Source of the DNA: Pohlia nutans
Lineage: Eukaryota > Streptophyta > Bryopsida > Bryales > Mniaceae
Assembly (NCBI GenBank): GCA_022496805.1
Contig: CM040088.1
Location: forward strand, 10,075,001-10,139,000
Direction of reading: 5' to 3'
Length of the DNA stretch: 64,000 nt
Shown here: positions 3,501 through 39,612 of the stretch, one piece after another
How the letters are laid out: the number at the start of each line of letters is the position of its first letter
How positions within the stretch are numbered: position 1 is the stretch's first letter
Position numbers and translations under genes: made by a program
Notes under the pieces: model-generated
Database searches by the model: none
Seen by the model: the letters and a program-made list of their open reading frames with translations, nothing else
What the model was told of the DNA's origin: nothing

Positions 3501-6500
3501 AGGTGTGGGAGTCATAGCGAGGTGTGGAGAATAATGACAGTGCCTTGCTTTAGATTGTCTCCCAACTCATCATAGACTAGTTTTTGGTCTGAGTTCAAGA
3601 GGAATTCAACACGAGTTTGCCAAAACTTTCCTCTTTGGGCTGACTTTTCGGTTAACTCTAATATGTGGAACAAACGTAAGAAAGAGAGTTTGTTGCCCCG
3701 TTGGGATAAGGCATAATTACTTGGCAAGAAGCTCCTCATACGCTGCTTTACTTTCACGCAATTCAGTGCGACACATCTCAGCAGTTGCCATTGCTTCATC
3801 TCTCATTTCGCGAAATGTCCTGCGTCATCCATATAGCCAAATACGATAAAAGGGTCTTGGATACATGTCAGTGATTGGTTCAGGTTAATTCGATTAGAAT
3901 GCAAGAACTAGCACCTGTCACCATAAAGATGCTAACAGTACCACATATAATGCTTAGCTCAAATGCCAGAAACCTCCGCACTTTGTTGGACATAAAGTCG
4001 TTGCTTGGTTTTGGCTTTGAGCACATCATTTTAGAACGTACTTCAATGATCCACACAAACCAACAAGGTGTCTCGATTTAGGCTTGATTTCGTTCAGAAA
4101 GGCCATTCGACAAAGGCCTGCGTACAAACTCAAGAAATTTGATTCAAAAGTTAAATAAGGCCACTTACCGAAATTTTTCATCAACCATAGCATTGGACTC
4201 TCTGCGACTTAGTTCAATGTCCTGGTTCGTGTGCTCCTTAATTCGCAAAATCTCGGCCTGAAAAAATGTCTAGGTCACCATTGTGCGTGCGTACGTACAT
4301 TAACGTCTTTATATGAATATACACAACTGCATCTACAGGCTCCAGTTTTGACCCCTAGCTCAAGAAATGTAAAGGGTACAAATGTAAATTGTAAATCGCC
4401 AAAAAAATGTTTTCTATTTTTCAAGTTTCAATTTTCAAATCGCCAATGGGATTCCCTTGAAAAAATGAAAAAAGAATCATTGATCACAATCATGAAGCTG
4501 ACCTGAAAACGTTCATTAGCAGCTAGAGAGTCTTTGCGAAGGTCTGTGCGTTCGCGCTTCACTTCCCGCAATTTTTCGTGCTGCTGCACAAGTTCGAACT
4601 CCAATTTTCGTACTTGTTCTTTCAAGGACTCAACTTCTTTGCTCAAATATGCCTGCAGTCAAAAGCAAAGGAAAATGAGTAAATATCATTCATACTTGAG
4701 GACCCAATATCATTTTTGAGGGACTAGGTTGAAAGGGACCTTATCCATGCTCAGAAGATCCAGGTTATGATCTTTCTCCTGAATTGAGCCTCGCAAAGTC
4801 TCCTTCTCTTGTAAAGCCACTTGCAGGGTAGTGACCATGGTAGCCTTTTCATTCTCGGCTTCAATGCTGGTGGATTGTAGATTCTTCAATTTTCCTTGCA
4901 CCTACCACACATGCATGTATGAGATCATCAAGACTAAAATCTTTGAGAGCGATAACTGAATAATTGGCTTGGACCGAGAGAGGACTTGCTTCATTCATTG
5001 GTCACAGTCCTTCGAGAAGCATGGCAAGCAATTATCACAGAAGAATTCCGAGACCAGCACAAGCGCCTCTGTATGTAGTATAGGACTCGACTACAATGGT
5101 TGAGGCGGAGACGAGATACCTAGCCAAGAGAGCTATTTCATCACAGATACTGTGTACTAAGCAGAAATGCGTTCATGAATAACATCGATTTGAAAGAATG
5201 ATAGTTTTGAAAGTACCTCGTCAAATAATGAGCATTTGGCACTCAGAACCTCTATCTGCTCAAGGGAATTGCGACGCTCGGCTTCCAGTTGCTTGATGAG
5301 CACAAGATTGGTGCTCAAATCAAGCTCAGATTCACGGTGTTCAATAGCATGATTAGCAGCCACTCTGTGCAAGTCATCCGTAAGCCTCTGCACTTCATCA
5401 TTTGCTCGTGTCAAGGCCTCCCTGCACGGGGTTGGTTCAGCTATGCATCCTTCTAACAATCCATGCTCTCAGAACCTTTTCTACAAGACACCACTAATGC
5501 CAATTTAAGTACAGTTGTCGACCTTCATCCCCGGGTGAACTCCTGGAATTAGTGAAATATCATTCATTCTAGATACTAATAAAGAATGGAAAGACATCTT
5601 CACAATCCAATGCCAATGTTCTTGGTACCATCAGAAAGCCCTTGAGGAGGGTGTGCACATTTTTGGTTTCAGAAGATTTGAACCTATGGGTGGGAGACAT
5701 TGAATTTCAAAGTATATTCATCACAAATACAAAAAACAAGAAAAATAGCCCTTAAAATGGGATTTAAGCACAATTTGGGCCACGGTAGTTGTGGCAGCGA
5801 CAATGGTTCTACAATTCTGATTCTAACCCATCATTTTTTTAAATACTCTATAAAATGCCATGTGAAATTAAAAATATATATAATAGGATATTTCAATAAT
5901 AAAAAGGAGGTTTACACCAGTCCCTGGGATAAAATTTTAATTTCGAATGCAATGATTATTATACAGAAATTTCATAAATCTAATGCGGTGTCACAAATTC
6001 GGCTCAATCTATGTTTATAAAAACTTAATTAATTAATTTTTTTTATAATCTAAAAATCAGCCTAGAAATGACGTAATTCCGAACACCCTTGTATTGTACA
6101 GTTCAGGTCTACTTTCCAACCCAGGGTCTTCATGAACAACCATGCCCATGAACCTCATTCTACAAAACTACCCCACAAACTAGGGAAAAACTTGCTGTGG
6201 AAAATCGTCAGTCACAAACATTGTGTCAAGGTTCTACGATAATACACATCATGAGATAGTTTGATAGCACAGACCTGGAGGTATCTTGAAATATCCGCAG
6301 CTCCTGGATCTCTTCCCGGTCACGAAAGAACTTCTCGTATGCCAGAATCAGAATATGATCCCTTGCAGTTCTTCGCTGCTCTGGGATGGATTTTAGTTCC
6401 ATGTACCTACTCCAGAAAGGACAGATAATTCATCTGCTCCAAACTGAAATCTCAGCTCTCATGTGACATTTATTAAAAACAATGCCCTCCTGATCCGACT

Positions 6501-9500
6501 GACTCGAACCTCACGTGACTCTCCAGACTGACCCAAAACAGCCTCAAAACGTGTGAGTTGAGTTGCATTGATGGACACTCTTAACCCTTAAAGGACATGA
6601 CTTTCTCGATTCCCATTCCCAAAATCTTTTTAAAACTCCATTTTAAGCATGATTCTCTTTTTAATTTACTTTGGTTCTATTCTAAAGAATTATAGATGCC
6701 TTATATATGTTTGTTTTGGCATTTTTAAAACCCCATTTGGTTCAACAGAGTAGAAGTTATGAGTATGATTCTACCGAAGAAAAGTAAGCCTGTGAGGCTT
6801 AGGATGTCCTTTAAGGATTAACCTTTTCACGATTGGAGGGCTTCGAAACACGCCTCCAATACTCCCAAAACGGGAATAACGGTGGTTAAAGGGTTAACGA
6901 CATTGTTTAAATGTGTGTATTCATGCAGTCAGTTCCAGTGCTCTAGCTAACTGCGTGATCCACCAAATTTTCAGGGAATTAGTTGTACTGACAAGTTAAA
7001 AGTAAGCCTTAAACAGTTTGTCAGGTGGACTGGAGTCAGAAGCGTATATTAGTACCGGTACGTACAATGGCTCGGAAACGTCGAAGTCCTTAATTGTTCT
7101 AAATTGCTCCTCGATCGATGGCACTTTTAGCTCAACCTGCATCAAATTTGATGGACAACTTCAAGACGTTAACCCCTAAACGTCAGAGCGTCCACTTCTG
7201 GACGACTAACAGATTCAAACCCTTCTCATGTTCTCATCAATGCTTGGATGAAAGTCATCCAATTTTTTGGAGATTCTTCACCAAGTTGTTGTCCTATCTA
7301 ACGGTTGGATTTAGTCATACTTGATTACATATTTTTCTAAAATTACAAATGTAGAAGTATGTCAAGTCGTTGACCAAGCCAAAATTGCGTTGACTGTAGT
7401 TCAAAAGTGGCCTTGCAAAAATGAGGTCATAGATTTAAGAAACACAAAAATTTCAAAGAATCACCACGTTTAAGAGTATCTCATTTCAAATTCATTCCAA
7501 CAAATTTTACTCAAAAAATATTAAAATTTTGTTTGTAATCGAATTTAGAAGGAATTTTAAATTTTAACTTTCAAATTTTATAATTAAATATTGGTAATAG
7601 TATTAGTGAATCAAACCGTACGGATGGAATCTAAAATTCAAAATCTAGAACTTTCATTTGTATATCAATTCCAAAATATTCTTCTAAATAGTAGTTTATG
7701 ATGATTTTCTTCAAATTGTCAATTCCAGGGACACCCTGGTACGTTTAGAGGTTAACCCTTTAGTGCCCAGCAAACCACATTATGGTCACTACAACGTCCG
7801 AAATGCAAATAGCAGAGAATCCGTGAAGAATTGGAACTTCAGTTTTGAAGTTTAGATTTGCGCACATACATTACGCACCTTCCAGAAAAAGAAATTTTCA
7901 ATTTGGAATTGTACAACTATCAAAATACCTATCAACAGAACGCAAAAATACTGCAAATACTTGAAAATACAGTAAATACTTACAAATACAACATATGTAT
8001 TGTGTAGTATTTCTTGTGTTTGGAAGTTTGTTATCTTGTTTTATTTTTTTGGATTGTGTTCTCTTCTTCATCTTCCATTAGTGTGTGTAATCTGATCTTG
8101 ACTAATGTACCCACTCCTGTCAATTTTCAACGTATAAAATTTTGTCCTAAACCGTACATGGACAAGTCACTTTCACTTATAAATCTCACAATAATTATGT
8201 GTGAGTCTATTTTTGATATGAAAGATTGCAACGGAGAGGTGTTGACATAGGGCATAGCTGAACTTCTTTGCTTTTATTTTTGAAAATTTACCTCAAATTC
8301 TATTTAACTTTGAAGTCACACACCCCCCAAAATCTTGTTTTTGAGCGTGCATTATACAGTTCAAATACATACTATAATCTTCCGATCCCACCATCAGATG
8401 ATTCTCAAATTTTAATAAAATGTGTGCTCTCGAGTTGAGAATAGAATTGTACGGTTACTTTCTAATTTAACCCATTCTATTTTTGGTAGTCTCAACCACA
8501 GTGGAAAAACCCACTGAAATCCAGAGCTGTCTGCTACAGTACCCTGGGCACTAAAGGGTTAAGGCGCAAGGAAAACATGTCCTTCTCAAGTACTGAAAAT
8601 AATAGCAAGGCCAGGAAAATATTCACTATAAAATCTGTTCACCTCAACTCTCAGAATATGAGAATGGAGGAGGGGCTTCAAGCTTGTAATGCACATTTGA
8701 TGCACAAGCCCTACTGGCGATGGTGGTACTTTAATTGCCATTCATTTAAGTTACGACATTACAAAAATTTTAATTACGACATGTTGATACCTCATTTTGA
8801 CGTCTAGCCAAATCGCTTACTTCCTGCTCAACCGTCTCCTCCAACCTTAACACTTCTTCCTCCAATCTGCAATGTGATCACCAGCTAATGTCAATTATAC
8901 TAAACTGTCTCCACTCTAAACTTATAAAGCTCGCAAAGTCAAGCCCCTGCTACTGTCATACTGTTTTGTGACCAAGGAGCAAGAACGTGAGTAAAACAAC
9001 ATATCCATTTTTACCTTCAAAGCGTGTTTCCAAAATCTGCACCTTTGCTGCTCGTTTGTGAAAATTTACAAATGATAATATTTTTTGTGATAAGGTGGGC
9101 TCTTCGTGTTCTACACAGCCCATGGTGAAATGGTATGTCGTTTAGTGATAGTTGAAACTCATGGCTTACGAAACCAGGCCTGTCTGCGATTGCCCTCAAT
9201 AATTACCAGATCTTGAAATTCCTAACCTTTGTATGTAGAGCGAGTCTAAAGTCTCTCGTTCTTCTACTTTACTCGTGAGGAACTTGATTTGGGCTTCAAG
9301 AGTTGCGACCTGCACGCGGCTGTCCCCAAGCTGCTGCACCAACTTTGCAGTCTCCTCACGATAATACTCTGACAAATGATGACAGGGCCTTGTTTTAGAT
9401 TGTCTTAAACCTTGGCACAGACTAGTTCTTGGTCTATTTTTGTTTCAATATGAGTTCAATATGAGTTCAACATGAGTTTGTCAAAACTTTTCCTCTTTGG

Positions 9501-11948
9501 GCTGACTTTTTGGTTACAACTCTATTGTATACAACTCAATAGGACTTGGACAACATGCTCAACGCACAATTTTTCTGGCAAAAGATGCATGCTAGTAAGA
9601 AATTACACGATCTATCAATTGTGATACAAGAGCAAAGAGCTCCCATTTCAACTCCAACACGGTCATATTTCACTGATTGGTTAGTATAAGCTGTAAACTT
9701 GAAGGAATCGAAACTATGCATGGAAAATCATCTTACTTCCGCAATCACATCCAGATGGGGTCGAGGCGTCAGAATTTGAAACTACAGAAACCCATGAGCT
9801 CACTGTCGTCTCCTTCCCAAGAGGGTCACAGGATCCCTGTAACAGTGTCCAGTAACTTGTTAATTTAGCAAGAAATCCTAGCTATAATCGTCCTTCCTAA
9901 CATATTAACAAGATAAGATACTGAATGTCTCCTTACACTCAAATTGTTTCTAATTGTTTCTGAGCAGGCTAATGTTTCTGAGCAGGCTAATGTTTCAACA
10001 TCAGTGAATGGATTCTTGAGGCATTAGCTTTACCAGGAGGAAGAGCACGTGTGACTACGTTTGTGTATAACCTTGAAGCATTATTCACTTAACGGGCTCT
10101 TAATCTACTCGTGATTCTCAGATCAGGCTAGGGCATCTGATGACTTACATCGACCCCTGCAGAATCAGATACGGGTGGAAAGAGGTCATCACGAACCCCA
10201 CAGCCTCCAAGCGTCGAATCAGACTGCACAATATTCCGAGTCAAATCTCCAAAATCCTCAATTACTCTGATTTTTTATATACCACAAAACGTCAGCTCAA
10301 AAACGGCTGATGGTTATATCTCCTTCCGATTCGAAGAATGGACGTCTAACTCGTCATCTTCAACTTACCTATCCTAAGAGCCAAGTTCCATAGGTGAAGT
10401 ATCTCACTAAAAGACAAATTTTTAGGGACTCCGGGGGACCAAGTACCACATTTCGAGTGAGCTTTTGAGAAAATAGTGGATGAGAAGTTGTCATGAAGTA
10501 TGGAGGGTTCTCAAGCCCAAGACTTCATGGCAACTTCACCCTAAACAATCAAAAATGTTAATGTTCAAGTCCATGGAACATGCACAACTTCATGGCCGGG
10601 TAGGAGACAAACCCAAGTTTCCATTTTTCCCCTCCTCTTGCCTACTTCCATGGGCAACTTCTCAAACCCATGGAACTTGGCTCTAAGTCAAAAACAAGTT
10701 AAGCAGATATTTAAGAAAATATGGAGGGACGATAACTTAGGGCGGGAAAAAAATTAGACTTTAGGATTAAAAAGATTTCAATCCTCTCAACATTCTCCAA
10801 GATGTAACGAATAATCAGAGCCATCTGTAATCAACAGTCACGAGGATCAAAAAGGGACGCTGAGGATTAGAGACCTAGGATAGAGTTTGAAAATTACTTG
10901 GAACTCTTTGAGTAGCCTCTCGAGGTGATGCTCAATGTGACGAGTCGCTCGCGACATTGCTTCTAACAACGCCAAGCGATCAAAGCATTTCTTCCATGGC
11001 AGTCATAACAAATTCAGCATTCTCTTGACTATGGCTTACTGCACAGTACAGATAGCCAAGGTGGTCATTCCGCAATCACATGCTCTTCACAGAAATCCCG
11101 GCCTCAATTCTTCCTATCCACAAATACCACTTTGGATACGGCGCTATGACCAAATCATCGTCTGCCTCACTAAGCAGAACAAACAAATAAACAAAGGAAC
11201 GGCCGTTAAGAAAGCAAAAGTTAAAAAATAAACACGCTAAATCCAGCTGGAATGCTTCATACAAAGTGCTTATTATACATGTGCTCAACTTTCTGATCAT
11301 CGTAACAAACTATTTAACCGAATATTCTCTGGTTTCACCATTAACACCATTTTCGTTAGAAGTGCACATGCAATTTTGTACTTTGAAAAAAAAAATGAAA
11401 AATTGCATAATAAGGAGGTTGGTGATTACCAATTCCTTTCAATACATGGTTTAAATTTCAAAAAGTGCATGACAAGAGAGCTGGTGATCGCCAACCTTAT
11501 GAAATGAGCCTCGTGAAAGACCAATTGTACGATCAGCAGAGAGTGTGGCCAAAGCAGTCTGAAATCGTCAACAGCAACAGCAGCTACACCAGCAGCTCAG
11601 ATTCTCCCCTTGGTCTTGAAGACTTACATTCTGCATGCGATCCTGGTCGAAGGGCATGAGGTTTAGGACCGTGGGCTTGGAACTGGGTGAGCTGGCAAGG
11701 TTACCGAGGACCAAATGGTTCCTAGTAGAGCGTAGATCCAGAATTAAGTGTTAATTTCCAGTGAGTTACTAATCTTTGTGTTAAGGCCATTCTACAAAAT
11801 TCTCATCCATAGTCTCTAAGAGTAAACAGGTATGACGTGAACTTTACCTTAAAGGATATCTGAATGAGCTGCTGGTAACTGGCTCCAAGGCTCCAGCCCG
11901 CGATTGTACACAAGTCCTATTCAAGTGGCTCCTCGTACAATTGACCAG
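528..11948 (-). CDS. PIBF1: PIBF1/CEP90-like centriolar satellite coiled-coil protein (multi-exon)
   Basis: In animals PIBF1/CEP90 is a centriolar satellite and distal centriole protein needed for ciliogenesis. Exons read by eye on the minus strand, 5' to 3': 11948-11848, 11721-11628, 10990-10898, 10223-10149, 9366-9227, 8866-8821, 7136-7066, 6406-6275, 5421-5217, 4901-4740, 4652-4503, 4257-4169, 3819-3721, 2756-2591, 1981-1659, 986-907, 687-528. Nearly all have AG/GT borders and matching phase, totalling about 730 residues against 757 for the human protein as I recall it. Diagnostic blocks are SEPLYMELKSIPEQ (exons 7-8), YLSKEVESL (exon 11), IKEHTNQDIEL (exon 12) and FREMRDEA followed by KFRELQRVADSK (exons 13-14), in the same order as human PIBF1. 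It is coiled coil throughout. The join 1659 to 986 is out of phase, so an exon there is missing or misread. The first exon and the stop codon were not found; the stop may lie before position 319. No ATG was chosen. Confidence 0.72.
1029..1457. mobile_element. PIF/Harbinger-type MITE in a PIBF1-like intron
   Basis: Its termini are imperfect inverted repeats, GAGCAACTCCAATGGGGCTC on the left and the complement of GAGCCACAATTGGTGATGTTC on the right. It is flanked by TAA at 1026-1028 and 1458-1460, the three-base target duplication typical of PIF/Harbinger. It lies between exons 986-907 and 1981-1659, where the reading phase fails to match. Confidence 0.7.
1833..1982 (-). repeat. 75-bp in-frame tandem duplication inside a PIBF1-like exon
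   Basis: Bases 1833-1907 and 1908-1982 are two copies of a 75-bp unit. In protein they give LNEGKSALQKSLVELKEEL followed by LNEEKSALEKALVELKEEL, so 25 residues (about 3.6 heptads) of coiled coil are doubled. The copies differ at several bases, so this is not a very recent event or an assembly stutter. Confidence 0.85.
3094..3660. mobile_element. Foldback element in a PIBF1-like intron
   Basis: The two halves are inverted copies of about 270 bp. The left starts TAGAGTTAAACTGAAAAGTC and the right ends GACTTTTCGGTTAACTCTA. Both arms carry ACAATCTAAAACAAGGC and AGTCCATGGCCCAC or their complements. It lies within intron 2757-3720. A partial second copy is at 9374-9527 in the same gene. Confidence 0.75.
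6581..6822. mobile_element. TTAA-flanked piggyBac-like MITE (family F)
   Basis: The left end is TTAACCCTTAAAGGACATG and the right end is GATGTCCTTTAAGGATTAA. The AGGACAT terminal motif is shared with the elements at 23978-24520 and 61973-62504. It lies in the intron between exons 7136-7066 and 6406-6275 of the PIBF1-like gene. Confidence 0.65.
6819..6897. mobile_element. Very short TTAA-flanked element or remnant
   Basis: It starts TTAACCTTTTCACGATTGG, sharing its TTAA with the right end of the preceding element, and ends GGTGGTTAAAGGGTTAA. At 79 bp it is either a deletion derivative or a chance arrangement. Confidence 0.35.
7169..7755. mobile_element. TTAA-flanked piggyBac-like MITE (family A)
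   Basis: It starts TTAACCCCTAAACGTC and ends GGTACGTTTAGAGGTTAA. The body is an inverted-orientation relative of the 13677-14262 element; shared text includes the GTCCA/TGGAC subterminal block and the GACAACTTC region. It lies in a PIBF1-like intron and abuts the next element at a single shared TTAA. Confidence 0.75.
7752..8562. mobile_element. TTAA-flanked piggyBac-like MITE (family E), intact ends
   Basis: It starts TTAACCCTTTAGTGCCCAG and ends CTGGGCACTAAAGGGTTAA, a perfect 19-base inverted repeat including the TTAA. The CCCTTT start is the classic piggyBac terminus. The interior at 8200-8400 matches, inverted, the interior of the truncated copy at about 22740-23395 (CACACCCCCCAAAATC against its complement). 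Confidence 0.8.
9374..9527. mobile_element. Solo arm of the 3094-3660 foldback element
   Basis: The text GGGCCTTGTTTTAGATTGTC through CTTTGGGCTGACTTTTTGG matches the right arm of the foldback element at 3520-3655. It is a partial insertion in the intron between exons 10223-10149 and 9366-9227. Confidence 0.65.
9964..9998. repeat. Short tandem duplication
   Basis: The unit GAGCAGGCTAATGTTTCT occurs twice head to tail within an intron of the PIBF1-like gene. No function is implied. Confidence 0.6.
10377..10683. mobile_element. PIF/Harbinger-type MITE in a PIBF1-like intron
   Basis: The left end is GAGCCAAGTTCCATAGG and the right end is CCCATGGAACTTGGCTC. Direct TAA triplets sit at 10374-10376 and 10684-10686. 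Internal phrases ACTTCATGGC and CCATGGAAC recur. Size, ends and TAA duplication fit a PIF/Harbinger MITE. Confidence 0.75.
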
Positions 11949-32945: not shown

Positions 32946-33409
32946 GACATGCCAATGACCACATGTGCAATACTCAAATCCTTCTCCACGACAATGTAGA
33001 AACTTATATTGTTTCAAATTTTGAAAGATTGTGGTATGTCAAGTTGGGATTCACCTTGAAAAAAATCACATTCAAAAATGTTTTGTACAATAACTTTTAT
33101 TGCATGTCAAACACATTAGTATGAGTCTTAATGGAAATTTACTCTTCACCACACAATGTGCGGTGATTGGGCGGTACTTTACATTTTTATTGGAATTGTG
33201 TTATGAAACTATGTGGTCATTGGCATATCTACTATTATTGGAACTATGCGGTCATTAGAACTGTGTGGTCATTGGCATGTCTACTATATATATTTTTATA
33301 TATACATACATTTTTTTTTTCTTTGTCTTACATGTTCTTCATTCTCTGTGATGCAATATATTGTTCCATCGTCTTCTCCAGTATTTTCCTGCTCCTATTC
33401 ATGTGCTTT
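31831..33409. other. AT-rich intergenic stretch with a (TA)16 repeat
   Basis: No genes are recognised. The region 31830-31920 matches the subterminal part of family H TTAA elements (CCCCTAACTGTCTAACC). A (TA)n microsatellite occupies about 32909-32940. Confidence 0.5.
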
Positions 33410-33418
33410 TATGAAAAC
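33410..33418. repeat. 9-bp target site duplication, left
   Basis: TATGAAAAC is repeated identically at 39604-39612. Nine bases is the normal duplication length for the Mutator/MULE superfamily. Confidence 0.85.
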
Positions 33419-33624
33419 GGGGGGCGCTAGTATGTGAGCCCAAGAGCGGAGAGCAGAAGAACAAGAGAGCCTGAGAGCGTAGGAAATTTTTGAGTTTTTT
33501 TTTTTTTTTTGAAAAATACCTATGACCGTGGGCCGAGGGTGTAGGATTCAGGGACTCTCAAGGCTGATGATTTACTGATTTTGGGTTTTAGATATTGGAT
33601 CCATATAAAATAAATTTGATATTC

Positions 33625-33649
33625 GGTTTAGGGTTTTAGGGTTTAGGGT
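33625..33649. repeat. Interstitial telomere-like motif
   Basis: GGTTTAGGG, TTTTAGGG and TTTAGGG occur in succession, plant-type telomere units, about 200 bp inside the left end of the MULE. Confidence 0.7.
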
Positions 33650-33699
33650 GACATATACAGTGATTTAGGGTTGAATATTGTAGAAAATGCAGCAATTCA

Positions 33700-35345
33700 T
33701 AAAGGCATCAGAGATCATCAAAGACAATGACGTGAAAAGGAACGCACGTATGAAAACATGAGTGTAGTGGCCCTTTTAGTCTCACTACCAATCATAAAAT
33801 AACATAGAAATGAAAATTACACTTCTCTATGAGGAATCATCAGAGGAGTCCTCATGTGTAGAAGATGATGTTCTAGAAAAAGAGCTAGAACTGTGGGTGC
33901 GAGAAAACTCCGCAGCTTCTACATCCAGGAACCGTGAAATCCCAGTATCATCGGGTCCCTCTATCATCTCTACGTCATCAAGACTCTGCTCAGCAAGTGC
34001 CCTAGCGAGTGGCTCCACGTACACAGGCAGCTCAAATGGTTTAGGCGGACTTGGGAAGAAACCGCGGAGAGCAATAAAAAGACTTCTGTTGAAGAGGCCT
34101 CGATTCGATCAACAGTCTGTAGCACATAGAAATAACATTAGTACTTTGAGCGACGTGACATTTATATCATCGCGTAGTAAACAAATGTGAATCCAAGCAA
34201 ACTTACTTACTCTGGCGTCTTCTCTTGATCTGCATGGGAACGATCTCTATGATCTCCGGATCCTGAGAGCGCTTCGGTGCCGAAGGCCGTGGTGCAAACG
34301 AGGAAGCCTTTGCATGCACCAAAGGAGCGATGAGTGCATTAAAAATGGCTTTATCCTCCTCTAATGCCACAATGTGGCGGTTGACATTCCTGCATAAATG
34401 AATGGAAGCGCCTGGAATTCACATACGAAGTTTATGTAATACGGTATATTTATGCATACCAAGAATGACGTGGATAAAATGTAAACAAATCAAAGCCGTG
34501 TAGGACAGTTTAAGGTTTATCAGTCATGGCATCAAAGATTACAACTAACAATGAGGTGAAGAATCACAAGGGTATGAAAATATAAGTGTAGTGGCCCTTT
34601 TAGTCTCACTACCAATCATAAGAAAATAAAGAAATACATAATAGATTGCTCTATGAAGAATCATCAAATGAGTCCTCATGTGTAGAAGACGATGTCCTAG
34701 ACAAAGAAATAGAACTGTGGGTGCGAGTAGACTCCTCAGCTTCTACATCTATGAATTGTGAAATGCCGGTATCAGCTGCTCCCTCTGTCATATCTACGTC
34801 GTCTAGACTATGCTCTGCAAATGCCCTAGCAAGCGGCTCTACGTACATAGGGGGCTCAAACGGTTTAGGTGGACTTGGAAAGAAACCACGCGCAGCAAAA
34901 AAAGGCTTGTGTTGAGGAGGGCTCATTCCAATTGACGATCTATAAAACAACGGAAAGACATTAGTACTTTGAGCGGCATGAAATTGATATCATCATGTAG
35001 CTAGCCAATTTGAATTCAAACAAACTTATTTACTTTGACATCTTCTCTTAATTTGCATTTGTACGATCTCCATGGTGTCTGGATCCTGAAGACGCTTTGA
35101 TGCGGAAGGCCGTGGCGATGGAGGGGTAGCCTTTGCACGTGCTAGAGGAACGATGAGTGCATCAAAGATGGCTTTGTCCTCCTCCAAAGCCACAATGTGG
35201 CGATTGACATTCCTGCAAGCATGAATGGAATCGCCTGGAATACACATACAAAGTTTATGAAAGAGAGTACTAGTAATAGATATATAGAATCACGTCGATA
35301 AAATGTAATAAAATCAAAGCTGTTTAGAGTGATAGAAATTCACCA
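33700..35345. repeat. 823-bp tandem duplication of methyltransferase-like 3' exons
   Basis: Two copies with an offset of 823-824 bp. Exon ends at 34411 and 35234 and tail stops at 33827 and 34651 show the same spacing. Both start with the flank GTGTAGTGGCCCTTTTAGTC. Both copies keep the 201-nt exon with GT/AG borders and an open acidic tail, although they differ at many bases. Confidence 0.85.
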
Positions 35346-35605
35346 GTCATGGCGTGGCAGTCAATAACAATGTCTCCCGGCTTAGAACAAGTCTCAATGA
35401 GAATTTGCCAAAAACCTTTGCTCTTCTCTCGGGGTCCGCGCCAGGGCTTGGAGCCGATTATCGCTTGGTCAATCTTGGTGGTGAAGTTCTCCAGCCACTC
35501 GTCCGGACCAATGTCCACTCCGAACTCGTTCATGAATGAGACTGGATTGAATAGGAAGGTGGAACCCTCCCTCTTCACCAAAGGGTAGGCATTGAATCTC
35601 TCCGT
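33827..35605 (-). CDS. MULE-borne N4/N6 DNA methyltransferase-like gene (5'-truncated, 3' exons duplicated)
   Basis: Exon 35605-35344 ends in phase 1 with a GT donor. It joins exon 35234-35034 to read PGDIVID-CHAMTGDSIHACR and then NRHIVALEEDKAIFDALIVPL. That is the motif I region of beta-class N4/N6 DNA methyltransferases (D..xGxG-like loop, helix, then an acidic residue after a strand), preceded by FWQILIETCSKPGD as in that family. A serine- and acid-rich tail is open from about 34941 to a stop at 34651. A second copy of the last exon and tail lies at 34411-34211 and about 34100-33827. The catalytic DPPY/SPPY-type motif, expected upstream in this class, is not in the window; sequence beyond 35606 runs into the repeat array. 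The splice phase into the tail exon is unresolved. Likely nuclear if expressed. Confidence 0.6.
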
Positions 35606-35789
35606 CTGTAATATCACAAGATAATGAAAACTAGAAACAAAGAAGCCAATGCAATTAGATTGAGAGTAATGACAAATGAACCATTTTAGATAAAGAACTT
35701 AGACGAACAACCGTCAACTCCGGTTTACTCAGATAACACAAAGGCAAACGATTCAGGCAAACGATTCATGCAAACCTGATTCATGCAAA

Positions 35790-37215
35790 CCTCCCTTAGA
35801 GGTGTCTCATACACCATTGAAAAGGTGCTCATGAGACCTTTCTACTGGTATAATACACGCCGCAAACTGAAAAAAATTGTGCCCGCAAATTGAAAAACCA
35901 ATCTTACGAGCAGCGGCTGGAGAAAAAAACTAGTCTGCCGCGCCACCTTGGGGGGGGGGGGGGGCGTCGCCGGCGACGCCCCCCCTAGGGGTGTTTCATA
36001 CACCACTGGAAAGGTGCTCTCGAGACCTTTCCAACGATATATTACACGCCCCAAACTGACAAAAATTGTGTCCGCAAATTGAAAAACCAATCCTGCGAGC
36101 AGCGGTTAGAGAAAAAAACTAGTCTGCCGCGCCACCCTTGGGGGGGGCGTCGCCGGCGACGCCCCCCCCCTAGGGGTGTCTCATACACCACTAGAAATGT
36201 GCTCTCAAGACCTTTCCAACGGTATTTTACACGCCCCAAACTGATAAAAATTATGTCCCCAAACTGAAAAACCAATCTTGCGACCAACGGATGGTGACAA
36301 AATTTTAAAAATGGGAGTCATGGCGTGGTGTGAAGCCACGCCATGATGCCTCGGTGGAACGCCACCCCCATTATGCAAGAAAAATTTGAAAAACGGGGGC
36401 CACGGCTTCACTATTCAAAAAAGATTTGAAAAAACGGGGGCCACGGCGTGGCGTCACGCCACGCCGTGACGCTTCGGTGCGCCACCTCTAGGGGGGGGCG
36501 TCACCAGGGACGCCCCCCCCCCCAGGGGTGGCGCGTCCTGGCCGCATTTTTCAAAAATATTTGAAAAATCGGGGCCATGGCGTGGCTTGACGCCACACCG
36601 TGACGCTTCGATGCGCTAACCCTAGGGGGGGCGTCGCCGGCGACGCCCCCCCAAGGGTGGCGCGGCAGACCAGATTTTTTCTCCATCCGCTGCTCGCAGG
36701 ATTAGTTTTTCACTTTGCGGACAGAATTTTTGTCAGTTTGGGGCGTGTAATATACCGTTGGAAAGGTCTCGAGAGCACCTTTTCAGTGGTGTATGAGACA
36801 CCCCTAGGGGGGGGCGTCGCCGGCGACGCCCCCCCCAAGGGTGGCGCGGCAGACTAGTATTTTTCTCTAACCGTTGCTCGCAGGATTGGTTTTTCAATTT
36901 GTAGACACAATTTTTGTCAGTTTGGGGCGTGTAATATATCGTTGGAAAGGTCTCGAGAGCACCTTTCCAGTGGTGTATGAGACACCCCTAGGAGGGGCGT
37001 CGCCGGCGACGCCCCTCCCAAGGGTGGCGCGGCATACTAGTTTTTTTCTCTAACGACTGCTCGCAGGATTGGTTTTTCAATTTGCCGACACAATTTTTGT
37101 CAGTTTCGGGCGTGTAATATACAGTTGGAAAGGTCTCAAGAGCACCTTTCCAGTGGTGTATGAAACACCCCTAGGGGGGCGTCACCGGCGACGCTCCCCC
37201 AAGGGTGGCACGGCA
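35790..37215. repeat. Inverted array of ~185-bp GC-rich repeats between divergent MULE genes
   Basis: Left-facing monomers start near 35801, 35990 and 36175 (GGTGTCTCATACACC). Right-facing monomers carry its complement near 36789, 36973 and 37156. Each has GGAAAGGTCTCGAGAGCACC or its complement, TCAGTTTGGGGCGTGTAA, and a G-run plus the perfect 18-bp palindrome GGCGTCGCCGGCGACGCC (35963, 36146, 36630, 36813, 36996). The centre (36300-36620) holds further palindromes such as CACGGCGTGGCGTCACGCC. It may serve as a bidirectional control region or protein-binding array; that is inference. Confidence 0.85.
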
Positions 37216-37284
37216 GAACCGCGGAAGAATTTCAATGCCGTCGTCGCTCGCCACGGACTTTAAAACCCTAACTTCAAGGGCTTC

Positions 37285-39111
37285 ATGGCTCACAGCGCGC
37301 ATGCAAATCAGAATGCTATATGCATTGTGTACGGAAGTGGAGATGCATCAGTCCCAATGCGATATAAAGAACGAACTTGTCTTTTCCATTGGGTTCATTC
37401 TTTGGAGAAGCACACCAAGGCTGACATCTGAGTTGATCTCGAAAACCAACATCCCATGCTCTGCAAGCAATACAAGACGGAGCCAGATTCCCGGTATCTC
37501 GCTATCCGACCTTGGTGGCTGTCCTCTGGAGCTACAATTGAAGATGGATCGAGACGTCTTGACCTCTAGCTTGCCTTTTGGCATTTTTGATACTGCCAAT
37601 GGGGAGGCTTTATGTAGCTGGTAAGCTCCTAAACCCTAACCTGTAAACCCAAATTCTCTATCATATGTTTCGTACCGCATTTCACATCCAAACTCTAAAG
37701 GTGCATTGCTTCCACTATACTAGGACCTCACAGAGGACGAGTTGGCTGAAATGCCGTCGTGCAACTTGGCCGAAAGTATCCACAACAAATGGAAACAACA
37801 ACCCGGTGATCGAGGATCAGACCTATTTGTCGGTACAGTTGATGACTTTGTCCGCTCCTTCATGCAGAGCGTCGCGTACTACCAATACCTCAAAGGAGAT
37901 AGAACAAGAACCGGCCCTACTAAAGAAGAACTGAAGCTTCGAATCGCACAAAAGTCTACAGAGCGCACGAGGAACTCAAAATTCCTACACAGCGCATTAG
38001 TGAAGATGCCGAGTGCTAAGGAGTTCTGCACTCGAATGCCTCAACTTGAAGGAGAGGAAGTCTTCCTCTCGTTGAAGCGGAAAGCAGACGTTCTAATGGG
38101 CTCGAAATTTGACACGCACAGACCTGATATGATCAGCATCTTGCGTCCTCGAGTCCAGACAAGATCTACACAAAACAACGCCCTAAACCTCCCACCGTCT
38201 CCAATGGGGCTGGAGGACTCTCCCCAAGTATTAGAGAAGTTAGATGTGCAAGTGCAGGTACCAGCCCACACCCTTGCGGCAGCCCTAAACCACGTTACTT
38301 CCGTGCAAGAAATGGCTTGCAACGAGAGTCAATGGCACATTGCTAGGCTTCCAAAATCATCTGCAAAGGCTTGTTTCGCGCAGCAGGCTGTCACTAAGAA
38401 AAAGTGCATTGCTCGAATCATACAGGACAAAAAATCTACCGTTGTTCCTACGTACACAGGCTTGATGGACAATTACAGGAAAAACCGCAAGGACCGCATG
38501 CAATTTTTCTTCTGCAACGACGACATTGAGAGGTGTATCAAAGGAACTCGCAGAAAGTGGGTTATGTCCCGCCCGGAGGTCCTCGAGATCTGGCCCGTCA
38601 ATAACGGCACTAACCTAAGTACACTTAAGGAGATACTTACTCTAAAAAATGCTGGTTTTCGACTTCCACGGCGGGAGGTCATATCGCCGCAAAGGCTTAA
38701 CTGTGAAGGATTTAGGGGTTTAGGGTTTAGAGTAAAGTGCCCGTAGAAGCTCACAGAAACCAGTGGGAGAGCGCTCGCAACGTGAAGGCAACAATTGTCC
38801 GAGTTAACCTCCTTCCATATCCGGGTCTAGGAGCAATCGTTGTCCTACAATCTGGAGTTGAGCCTAACGCAAACATTTACAATATCACTCTCTGCAATTT
38901 CCCGGCTTGTACGTGCCCACATTATCATAGTATGACTTCTTCTGCAATTGGAAGGCGTGACATGTACGTCAACTGCAAGCACCTTTACTATGTCTTTCGC
39001 TTCTTTTGCAAGCTAGACTACAAAGTGGACACTTTCATCTATGCCCCCACTCTAAGCATAGACAAAGTCCAGCATATTCTGGTAGCTGCAGGGATTATCA
39101 AGATTCCTTAG
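37285..39111 (+). pseudogene. Decayed MULE transposase with SWIM zinc finger
   Basis: The frame from 37285 reads NQNAICIVYGSGD and then MRYKERTCLFHWVHSLEKHT, typical MULE transposase text. It is broken by TGA at 37429, TAG at 37567 and more stops up to 37623. A plausible intron (GT at 37624, AG before 37730) leads to a long open stretch (37730-38706) with NLAESIHNKWKQQ, a MULE C-terminal signature, and FRLPRREVISP. The frame shifts at a telomere-like insert (38711-38730). It then continues to 39111 with a SWIM finger, C-T-C then C-K-H (cysteines at 38908, 38914 and 38974; histidine at 38980). Several stops could come from CGA to TGA or CAG to TAG changes. Catalytic acidic residues cannot be confirmed. 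Confidence 0.72.
38711..38730. repeat. Telomere-like motif at a transposase frame break
   Basis: TTTAGGGG, TTTAGGG and TTTAG follow one another exactly where the transposase frame shifts. This may be a filler from double-strand break repair or a coincidental motif. Confidence 0.6.
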
Positions 39112-39603
39112 TTCTAGATGCCATGTTTTGTCATGGCTTGGAAACCCCAAACCGAAGATTGGTTAATGGACTGCTGAGGTAGTTTTGTGGTTTAGGGGGG
39201 GAGTAGAATCATAGATTCTATTACAAAGTACAACACTATAAATTGTAGATGATTGGAGTACTTGCCTACCAAGTGTGACTTCAATGATCATTTATTCACA
39301 AAAAAAAACTTAAAAATATACTACCATATGTTAGACCAATTATATTCATTTATATTGTTTTGCCAAACCTTTTCCAAATTGACAGCAAAAATTTACATTC
39401 TGCACTGCTAACACACGGTCTTAGGTCCAGCGGTCATAGGTCCCCTAAAATTACTATAAATAATAAAACCCTATTTTTAGAAATGTTTTTTCTAAAAATA
39501 ACGCCAAAATTTTAATTTAGCAAGATTGTATGCTCTCCGCTCTCCAAATCACCGCTCTTCGCTCTTACGCTCTCCGTTCTACGCTCGCACGGTAGCATCG
39601 TTG

Positions 39604-39612
39604 TATGAAAAC
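39604..39612. repeat. 9-bp target site duplication, right
   Basis: TATGAAAAC, identical to 33410-33418. Confidence 0.85.

Follow-up and report, generated by a model that had tools for sequence, protein, structure and literature searches.

A deleted copy of a MULE-like transposon in the moss Pohlia nutans and the methyltransferase-like second gene of its full-length relatives

Results

A MULE-like element with two divergent gene remnants

We analyzed a stretch of 64,000 nucleotides from the moss Pohlia nutans (GCA_022496805.1, contig CM040088.1, positions 10,075,001 to 10,139,000; hereafter the window), which contains a Mutator-like element (MULE-like element) with the remnants of two genes, a predicted transposase gene (the first gene) and a methyltransferase-like gene (the second gene). 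The element proper occupies 33419-39603 (6185 bp) and lies between perfect 9-bp repeats, TATGAAAAC, as read directly from the sequence; the 9-bp duplication, the imperfect inverted ends and the length given in a preliminary description of this locus are all present where it had placed them. The divergent coding blocks that it had described on either side of a central repeat array are also there, in the window in the form of gene remnants: the minus strand carries exons E7, E8 and E9 of the second gene, of which E8-E9 form a tandem duplication with a spacing of 823-824 bp, and the plus strand carries three transposase blocks, T1, T2 and T3. The features are as follows.

33410..33418, no strand: left target-site duplication TATGAAAAC, from the sequence; sister insertions have different matching repeats
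33419..33490, plus strand: left terminal inverted repeat, imperfect and rich in GAGAGC units, from comparison of copies
33827..34108, minus strand: second tandem copy of exon E9, in a shifted frame compared with the other copy
34203..34418, minus strand: second tandem copy of exon E8 (ASIHLCRNVNRHIVALEEDK)
34651..34939, minus strand: exon E9, encoding the C-terminal tail of the methyltransferase-like protein
35030..35234, minus strand: exon E8, after motif I of the methyltransferase-like domain; the homologous exon of copy L035 lies within the PF01555, PHROG and DpnA matches
35344..35605, minus strand: exon E7, ending in GDIVIDCHAMTG (altered motif I)
35712..35762, minus strand: weakly matching stub (E 0.013) from the 3' end of exon E6
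35790..37217, no strand: GC-rich array of inverted and tandem repeats separating the two genes, built of 183-189-bp units with core CGTCGCCGGCGACG
37225..37614, plus strand: what is left of the large transposase exon at its end (CLFHW, WWLSSGA, GGFM), with premature stops at 37429, 37567 and 37588
37724..38674, plus strand: next transposase exon (ESIHNKWKQQPGDRG...)
38761..39111, plus strand: C-terminal transposase exon with a SWIM-like CxC...CxH pattern (by eye, no Pfam match) and a stop at its end
39521..39603, minus strand: right terminal inverted repeat, from comparison of copies
39604..39612, no strand: right target-site duplication TATGAAAAC, from the sequence

Copies, ends and target sites in the genome

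Using window positions 33400-34400 as a DNA query against the window's own assembly (698 Mb), we scored the best 40 of 654 first-look candidates and obtained 50 matches at 40 places, the window counted. Twenty of the 39 other places were examined as 10-kb stretches; because all of them were picked by their left end, the second-gene exons that they contain are no independent test of whether the two genes belong together. The left terminal inverted repeat is recognizable in 18 of these 20 copies (replaced or lost in L015 and L022), and the inverted ends are imperfect, with a core of ~60-70 bp. Copies L009-L016 are 89-97% identical to the window (blastn pieces outside the array), and L017-L028, at 83-86% identity over the first kilobase, form a second subfamily.

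Both ends were located in 12 copies (the window, L010, L011, L012, L014, L015, L016, L021, L028, L023x, L027x and L037x); in the others an end is lost or lies beyond the stretch examined. The window and ten of the other 11 are flanked by their own perfect 9-12-bp repeat, in L011 with a few extra G between the repeat and the element end, and L015 has no flanking repeat, though both its ends were located. At a different locus, L035, the target of L037x is unoccupied and present as a single GTAGATAAC, that is, a matching empty site. The boundaries seen in the window are not due to chance: ten other copies have the same ends, each with its own internally matching repeat. The L037 insertion (C2) and the empty target at L035 (C18) both lie within a repeated sequence. 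In L024, blocks T3, T2 and T1 are inverted relative to the usual layout, and this is probably a rearranged or nested copy.

The genome search for copies with the same ends that the preliminary description had proposed led to three full-length copies, L023x (14,640 bp), L027x (14,468 bp) and L037x (14,871 bp), each of which carries both genes in the same divergent layout. The core of the central array, CGTCGCCGGCGACG, is a palindrome within the inverted 183-189-bp arrays of the window (35790-37217); the exact core also occurs in six of the eight copies L009-L016, in L037x and once in L035x, and was not found in L023x, L027x or the remaining L017-L028 copies.

The window copy is a non-autonomous, internally deleted 6.2-kb derivative of a 14-15-kb element and would need help to move. 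It retains E7-E9 of the second gene and the faint E6 stub, and E2-E5 and nearly all of E6 were not found in it; of the 752-residue transposase exon only residues 589-723 are left, in a frame (37225-37614) that is interrupted by premature stops, three in one alignment and four in another. The earlier picture of a two-gene element holds for the remnants of both genes and fails for the copy as it stands, a deletion derivative with a broken transposase frame. The T1 stops at positions 51 and 104 (37429 and 37588) are common to all seven window-subfamily copies compared, and that at position 97 to six of them; these seven copies sit at different sites, six with their own target-site duplications and L015 without. 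Since the two stops common to all seven recur at separate insertions, the window subfamily appears to have been mobilized in trans after its transposase was broken.

The first gene is a predicted transposase

The 752-residue exon of the first gene is open in L023x, L027x and L037x, and the C-terminal exons are open in L037x. We infer that this gene encodes a transposase because it is located between inverted ends with 9-bp duplications, because the CxC...CxH pattern seen by eye in its last exon is SWIM-like (the Pfam SWIM model is not matched), and because the region around CLFHW appears to resemble MULE transposases. The gene is not named by any library used, and NCBIfam gave nothing for the long transposase homologue P0036. 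Of the MULE assignment put forward earlier, the target-site duplication and the inverted ends have stood, and PF10551 (the MULE domain) is unmatched. We therefore call the element MULE-like rather than a member of the group, "MULE" referring to structure only; the target-site duplications of MULEs span 8-11 bp (PMC6446971). PF10551 scores at 150 places in the genome (of 263 candidates), none of them at the elements examined (compared by eye), and ordinary MULEs are therefore abundant beside this moss family.

The two genes occur together

Of 1,431 first-look candidates for exon E6, 150 places were scored, and the 752-residue transposase exon gave 63 rows for 60 scored of 2,933 candidates, which became 60 places when three second-piece rows were dropped. 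At 36 of these 60 places, E6 is found on the opposite strand and on the expected side, 8.0-28.2 kb away (within an interval of 4-30 kb), and no other geometry at 4-30 kb occurs among the scored places; random placement gave a mean of 0.33 and a maximum of 3 in 1000 trials. Among the scored places, a partner is present at 33 of 43 with at least 85% identity and at 3 of 17 below 85%; for the transposase lineage at 74-75% identity, the figure is 0 of 13 among the matches listed. That the locus holds a single element, as first described, is borne out both by this co-occurrence and by the matching repeat pairs at 11 of 12 insertions.

The second gene resembles amino-methyltransferases

In our model the second gene has ten coding exons encoding ~1,090 residues; the L035 model is 1,088 residues long with one internal stop. 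Searched on their own, the window letters match N6_N4_Mtase in Pfam at E 0.06, which is not significant. When the C-terminal domain of L035 is spliced together and searched, it matches PF01555 with 23.3 bits (E 7.2e-5), five methyltransferase families of PHROGs (the best at 2e-4) and, in NCBIfam, CcrM at 1e-3. In the PDB, a five-copy profile finds DpnA at 2.3e-4, the two aligning without gaps around motif I, and the rows that follow, at 0.039 or above, are unrelated. By these matches, all of them weak, the second gene resembles N6/N4 amino-methyltransferases. The gene proposed earlier as methyltransferase-like has thus kept that likeness by way of the L035 domain, and has not kept it for the window alone or for motifs IV and I, which are altered. 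PF01555 finds no match in the moss's own genome at E ≤ 0.001, as expected because the match of this gene is weak and split by introns.

A profile search of 5.8 billion proteins returned 24 relatives. Two carry a species name, in both cases Ceratodon purpureus (P0004 and P0007), and many of the 24 are so similar to one another that they do not count as independent evidence one by one. P0004 matches PF01555 at 1.9e-5 with 25.2 bits, against a cut-off of 26.7. P0007 is M758_UG251900, apparently on the U sex chromosome, judging from its name. No relatives were found among viral contigs.

An upstream frame, E1 (L023 4353-5045, plus strand; L021 2419-3045, minus strand), with 8-residue repeats of the FVPTSPPE or PTSPPEFV type, may belong to the same protein. 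In L021, L023 and L035 it stops at a similar position, directly after RR[LS]A; its repeats resemble those of the RNA polymerase II tail. A ParB-like reading of E2 (CDGN[HQ]RxQAW; for example L035x 4888-5334), made by eye, was dropped, as the libraries gave no such match. In L035x (L036 and L035 joined), positions 8499-10172 hold a 558-residue frame with a weak match to the PF00069 protein-kinase family (E 0.0085); the right end of the element beside it was not found.

Catalytic and cofactor motifs are altered

Motif IV of amino-methyltransferases reads [DNS]PP[YFW], and their S-adenosylmethionine (SAM) motif I reads F-x-G-x-G. All 11 aligned copies have DYQE or DYPE as motif IV. Of the 24 homologues, 21 extend over this motif: D is present in all 21, P at position 3 in 19 and E at position 4 in 19; P at position 2 and an aromatic residue at position 4 are absent, that is, P-P-aromatic occurs in 0 of 21. 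The intact copy with a catalytic motif for which the preliminary description had suggested looking did not turn up among the copies and homologues examined. Motif I aligns without gaps as dcnamtg to DPFMGSG of DpnA. Most copies have it as DC-x-A-x-TG; L018 has NC in place of DC, the motif of L019 is broken, and L017 lacks it. The four homologues that extend over motif I show D-[CY]-x-A.

SPPY, DPPY, NPPY and DPPW are named as forms of motif IV in work on the bdelloid rotifer amino-methyltransferase N4CMT, in which replacing the S and Y of SPPY with A abolished activity (PMC8885841). Because these mutants are inactive, a DPPY-type motif appears to be needed for amino-methylation, and, going by its motifs, the second protein is unlikely to methylate.

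Both genes carry a signature of selection

Ratios of nonsynonymous to synonymous substitution rates (dN/dS) were calculated by the Nei-Gojobori (NG86) method for the ten copies with a long second gene (L018, L019, L020, L022, L023x, L025, L026, L027x, L035x and L037x), with partial copies, the window subfamily, gapped codons and stop codons excluded. All between-subfamily pairs give a dN/dS of 0.14-0.19 for the second gene (857-1063 codons, dS 0.85-1.62), values that are rough because dS is near saturation, and within-subfamily pairs give 0.27-0.54, higher because recent decay counts more. Four between-subfamily pairs compared in the wrong frame as a control gave 1.1-1.7, and in them third codon positions show roughly threefold more differences than second positions. 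In the domain exons E6-E8, dN/dS is 0.06-0.25 for six pairs, and exon E2 reaches the lowest values of the protein, 0.05-0.08 in the four pairs, of six, for which the ratio is defined. These ratios make it likely that the second gene is under purifying selection despite its altered catalytic motif.

The large transposase exon gives 0.16-0.19 at dS 0.21 for L037x against L023x and L027x, the next exon 0.12 for L037x against L023x, and the transposase of L023x against L027x 0.34 at dS 0.05. Overall, dN/dS is ~0.15 in both genes. For the pair L037x and L023x (L023, L030, L037, L038), dS is 1.14 in the second gene and 0.21 in the transposase, an approximately fivefold difference within one pair of elements; because of this difference, we infer that the two halves may have been exchanged as modules between element lineages.

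Discussion

The explanation that we favor, tentatively and with rather less than full conviction, is that the window holds a deleted copy of a 14-15-kb MULE-like two-gene element whose second protein is a non-catalytic DNA-binding regulator aiding expression or mobility. The second gene would be a methyltransferase-derived regulator carried by the transposon; its fold, lacking P-P-aromatic and the canonical SAM loop, is predicted to have lost methylation and to bind the element's DNA or chromatin. Once bound, the protein would oppose silencing in the manner of the anti-silencing protein VANC rather than of a methylase, which is the weakest step, and such a regulator would keep the element expressed or mobile. 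VANC is not known to descend from a methyltransferase. Because the second gene is conserved while the element multiplies, it would work for the element, a role suggested jointly by the resemblance to methyltransferases, the co-occurrence of the genes and their dN/dS values. A fuller history, in which moss MULE-like transposons acquired a prokaryotic-type amino-methyltransferase, lost its catalytic tetrad lineage-wide and remade it as a selected, VANC-like anti-silencing factor present in more than 100 copies in this one genome, is conceivable and appears doubtful.

A number of results weigh against the regulator explanation. Pfam at E ≤ 1 gives nothing telling for the predicted transposase exons and no family at all for the two 752-residue exons tested, PF10551 matches neither these two nor eight homologues, and the 32 database relatives of the predicted transposase have no Pfam domain and no telling name. 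In the second gene, none of the ten long copies is stop-free (0-3 stops per exon), the PF01555 match of L035 lies below the curated cut-off of 26.7 bits and extends over no more than the final quarter of the profile, and a single-sequence protein search found no relative. AlphaFold models of the homologues P0004 and P0001 are poor (mean predicted local distance difference test, pLDDT, 47 and 46), and Foldseek gave no significant fold match, its weak rows (MTA1, M1.HpyAVI, CcrM and METTL3/14) being left unused. Residual activity is possible because the D of motif IV is retained. Finally, 24 of the 60 transposase places have no partner E6 among the matches listed; there, the second gene may be more distant, or there may be none.

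If, instead, the second protein were a transposition partner, of the mudrB type or a DNA-end binder, the divergent co-occurrence of the two genes would follow naturally, as would the dN/dS of 0.05-0.08 in E2 (four of six pairs), below that of the methyltransferase-like part; the poor showing of E6 near diverged transposases (0 of 13 in the 74-75% lineage and 3 of 17 below 85%, among the matches listed) suggests that the second gene may be dispensable for transposition, and we regard this role as rather unlikely. It is more improbable still that the gene encodes an active DNA amino-methyltransferase that marks element or host DNA with N6-methyladenine (6mA) or N4-methylcytosine (4mC). The significant domain matches in Pfam, PHROGs, NCBIfam and the PDB are indeed to N6/N4 DNA methyltransferases, CcrM and DpnA included, dN/dS is low in E6-E8 (0.06-0.25, six pairs), and the D of motif IV is kept, but P-P-aromatic is absent from 11 of 11 copies and from all 21 homologues covering motif IV, motif I is DC-x-A-x-TG in most copies, and the rotifer N4CMT is inactive once the S and Y of SPPY are changed to A (PMC8885841).

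A functionless passenger, that is, a host gene fragment captured in the Pack-MULE manner, would suit the decayed window copy, which is down to three exons, partly duplicated and frameshifted; elsewhere the gene has ten exons and a dN/dS of ~0.15, against 1.1-1.7 out of frame, and E6 scores at 150 genomic places (of 1,431 candidates), so that this reading is rejected for the family and applies at most to the window copy, as a decayed remnant. A Pack-MULE consists of a captured gene fragment and has no transposase of its own, and we rejected that class for the family, whose members have a predicted transposase and a long second gene. Two unrelated insertions lying side by side are refuted, as 11 of 12 copies have their two coding blocks inside a single pair of target-site duplications.

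SET domains are histone methyltransferases, with a fold unrelated to that of N6/N4 DNA methylases, and this sets MULE-Phytophthora_1 apart from the moss element. The two are alike in that MULE-Phytophthora_1 is a MULE group with an epigenetic accessory open reading frame (ORF), SET (PMC6446971, PMC12730594). The VANDAL MULEs of Arabidopsis, which carry VANC, share with the moss element the 9-bp target-site duplication and an accessory gene that serves, or in the moss would serve, the element; their transposase is of the SWIM type (PMC6446971), that of the moss has a SWIM-like pattern by eye. They differ in that VANC is a sequence-specific anti-silencing protein (PMC10398659, PMC5735166), to which the moss protein is likened by description. 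Other MULEs have extra ORFs or domains (RING, OTU, SET, PMD and FAR1), and the word "methyltransferase" does not occur in the main text of that survey, as far as available (PMC6446971). Fungal TET/JBP-carrying transposons are, like the moss element, DNA transposons with a gene for a DNA-modification enzyme, but the enzyme is a dioxygenase, the types named are hAT and IS3EU, the host is a fungus, and neither "MULE" nor "Mutator" appears in the part of the text available (PMC12730594).

DNA methyltransferase (DNMT or Dam) genes are likewise carried by SymbioLINE/DIRS, KnitGypsy-Dnmt3 (with Ka/Ks < 0.2) and DIRS elements, and DNA transposons with DNMT in marine viruses are cited in the same paper (PMC5890265). 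These carriers are retrotransposons or viral elements with C5 or Dam-like enzymes, whereas the moss element is a plant DNA transposon with altered motifs. The bdelloid N4CMT is, like the moss gene, a bacterial-type amino-methyltransferase in a eukaryote with a link to transposons; it differs as a host gene with a catalytic SPPY that silences transposons, the moss gene being transposon-borne with D-x-P-E or DYQE (PMC8885841). In the open-access literature searched, including the available text of PMC6446971, PMC13317346, PMC12730594 and PMC12695648, no MULE-type DNA transposon with an N6/N4 methyltransferase-like gene is reported, and the nearest precedents are the TET-carrying DNA transposons (PMC12730594) and the DNMT- or Dam-carrying retrotransposons (PMC5890265).

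DNA- or histone-modifying genes on transposons are known from a few lineages. A methyltransferase fold that is conserved on a mobile element although catalytically altered would offer a natural experiment in the conversion of such folds to regulators, and a testable candidate explanation for how bryophyte transposons escape silencing.

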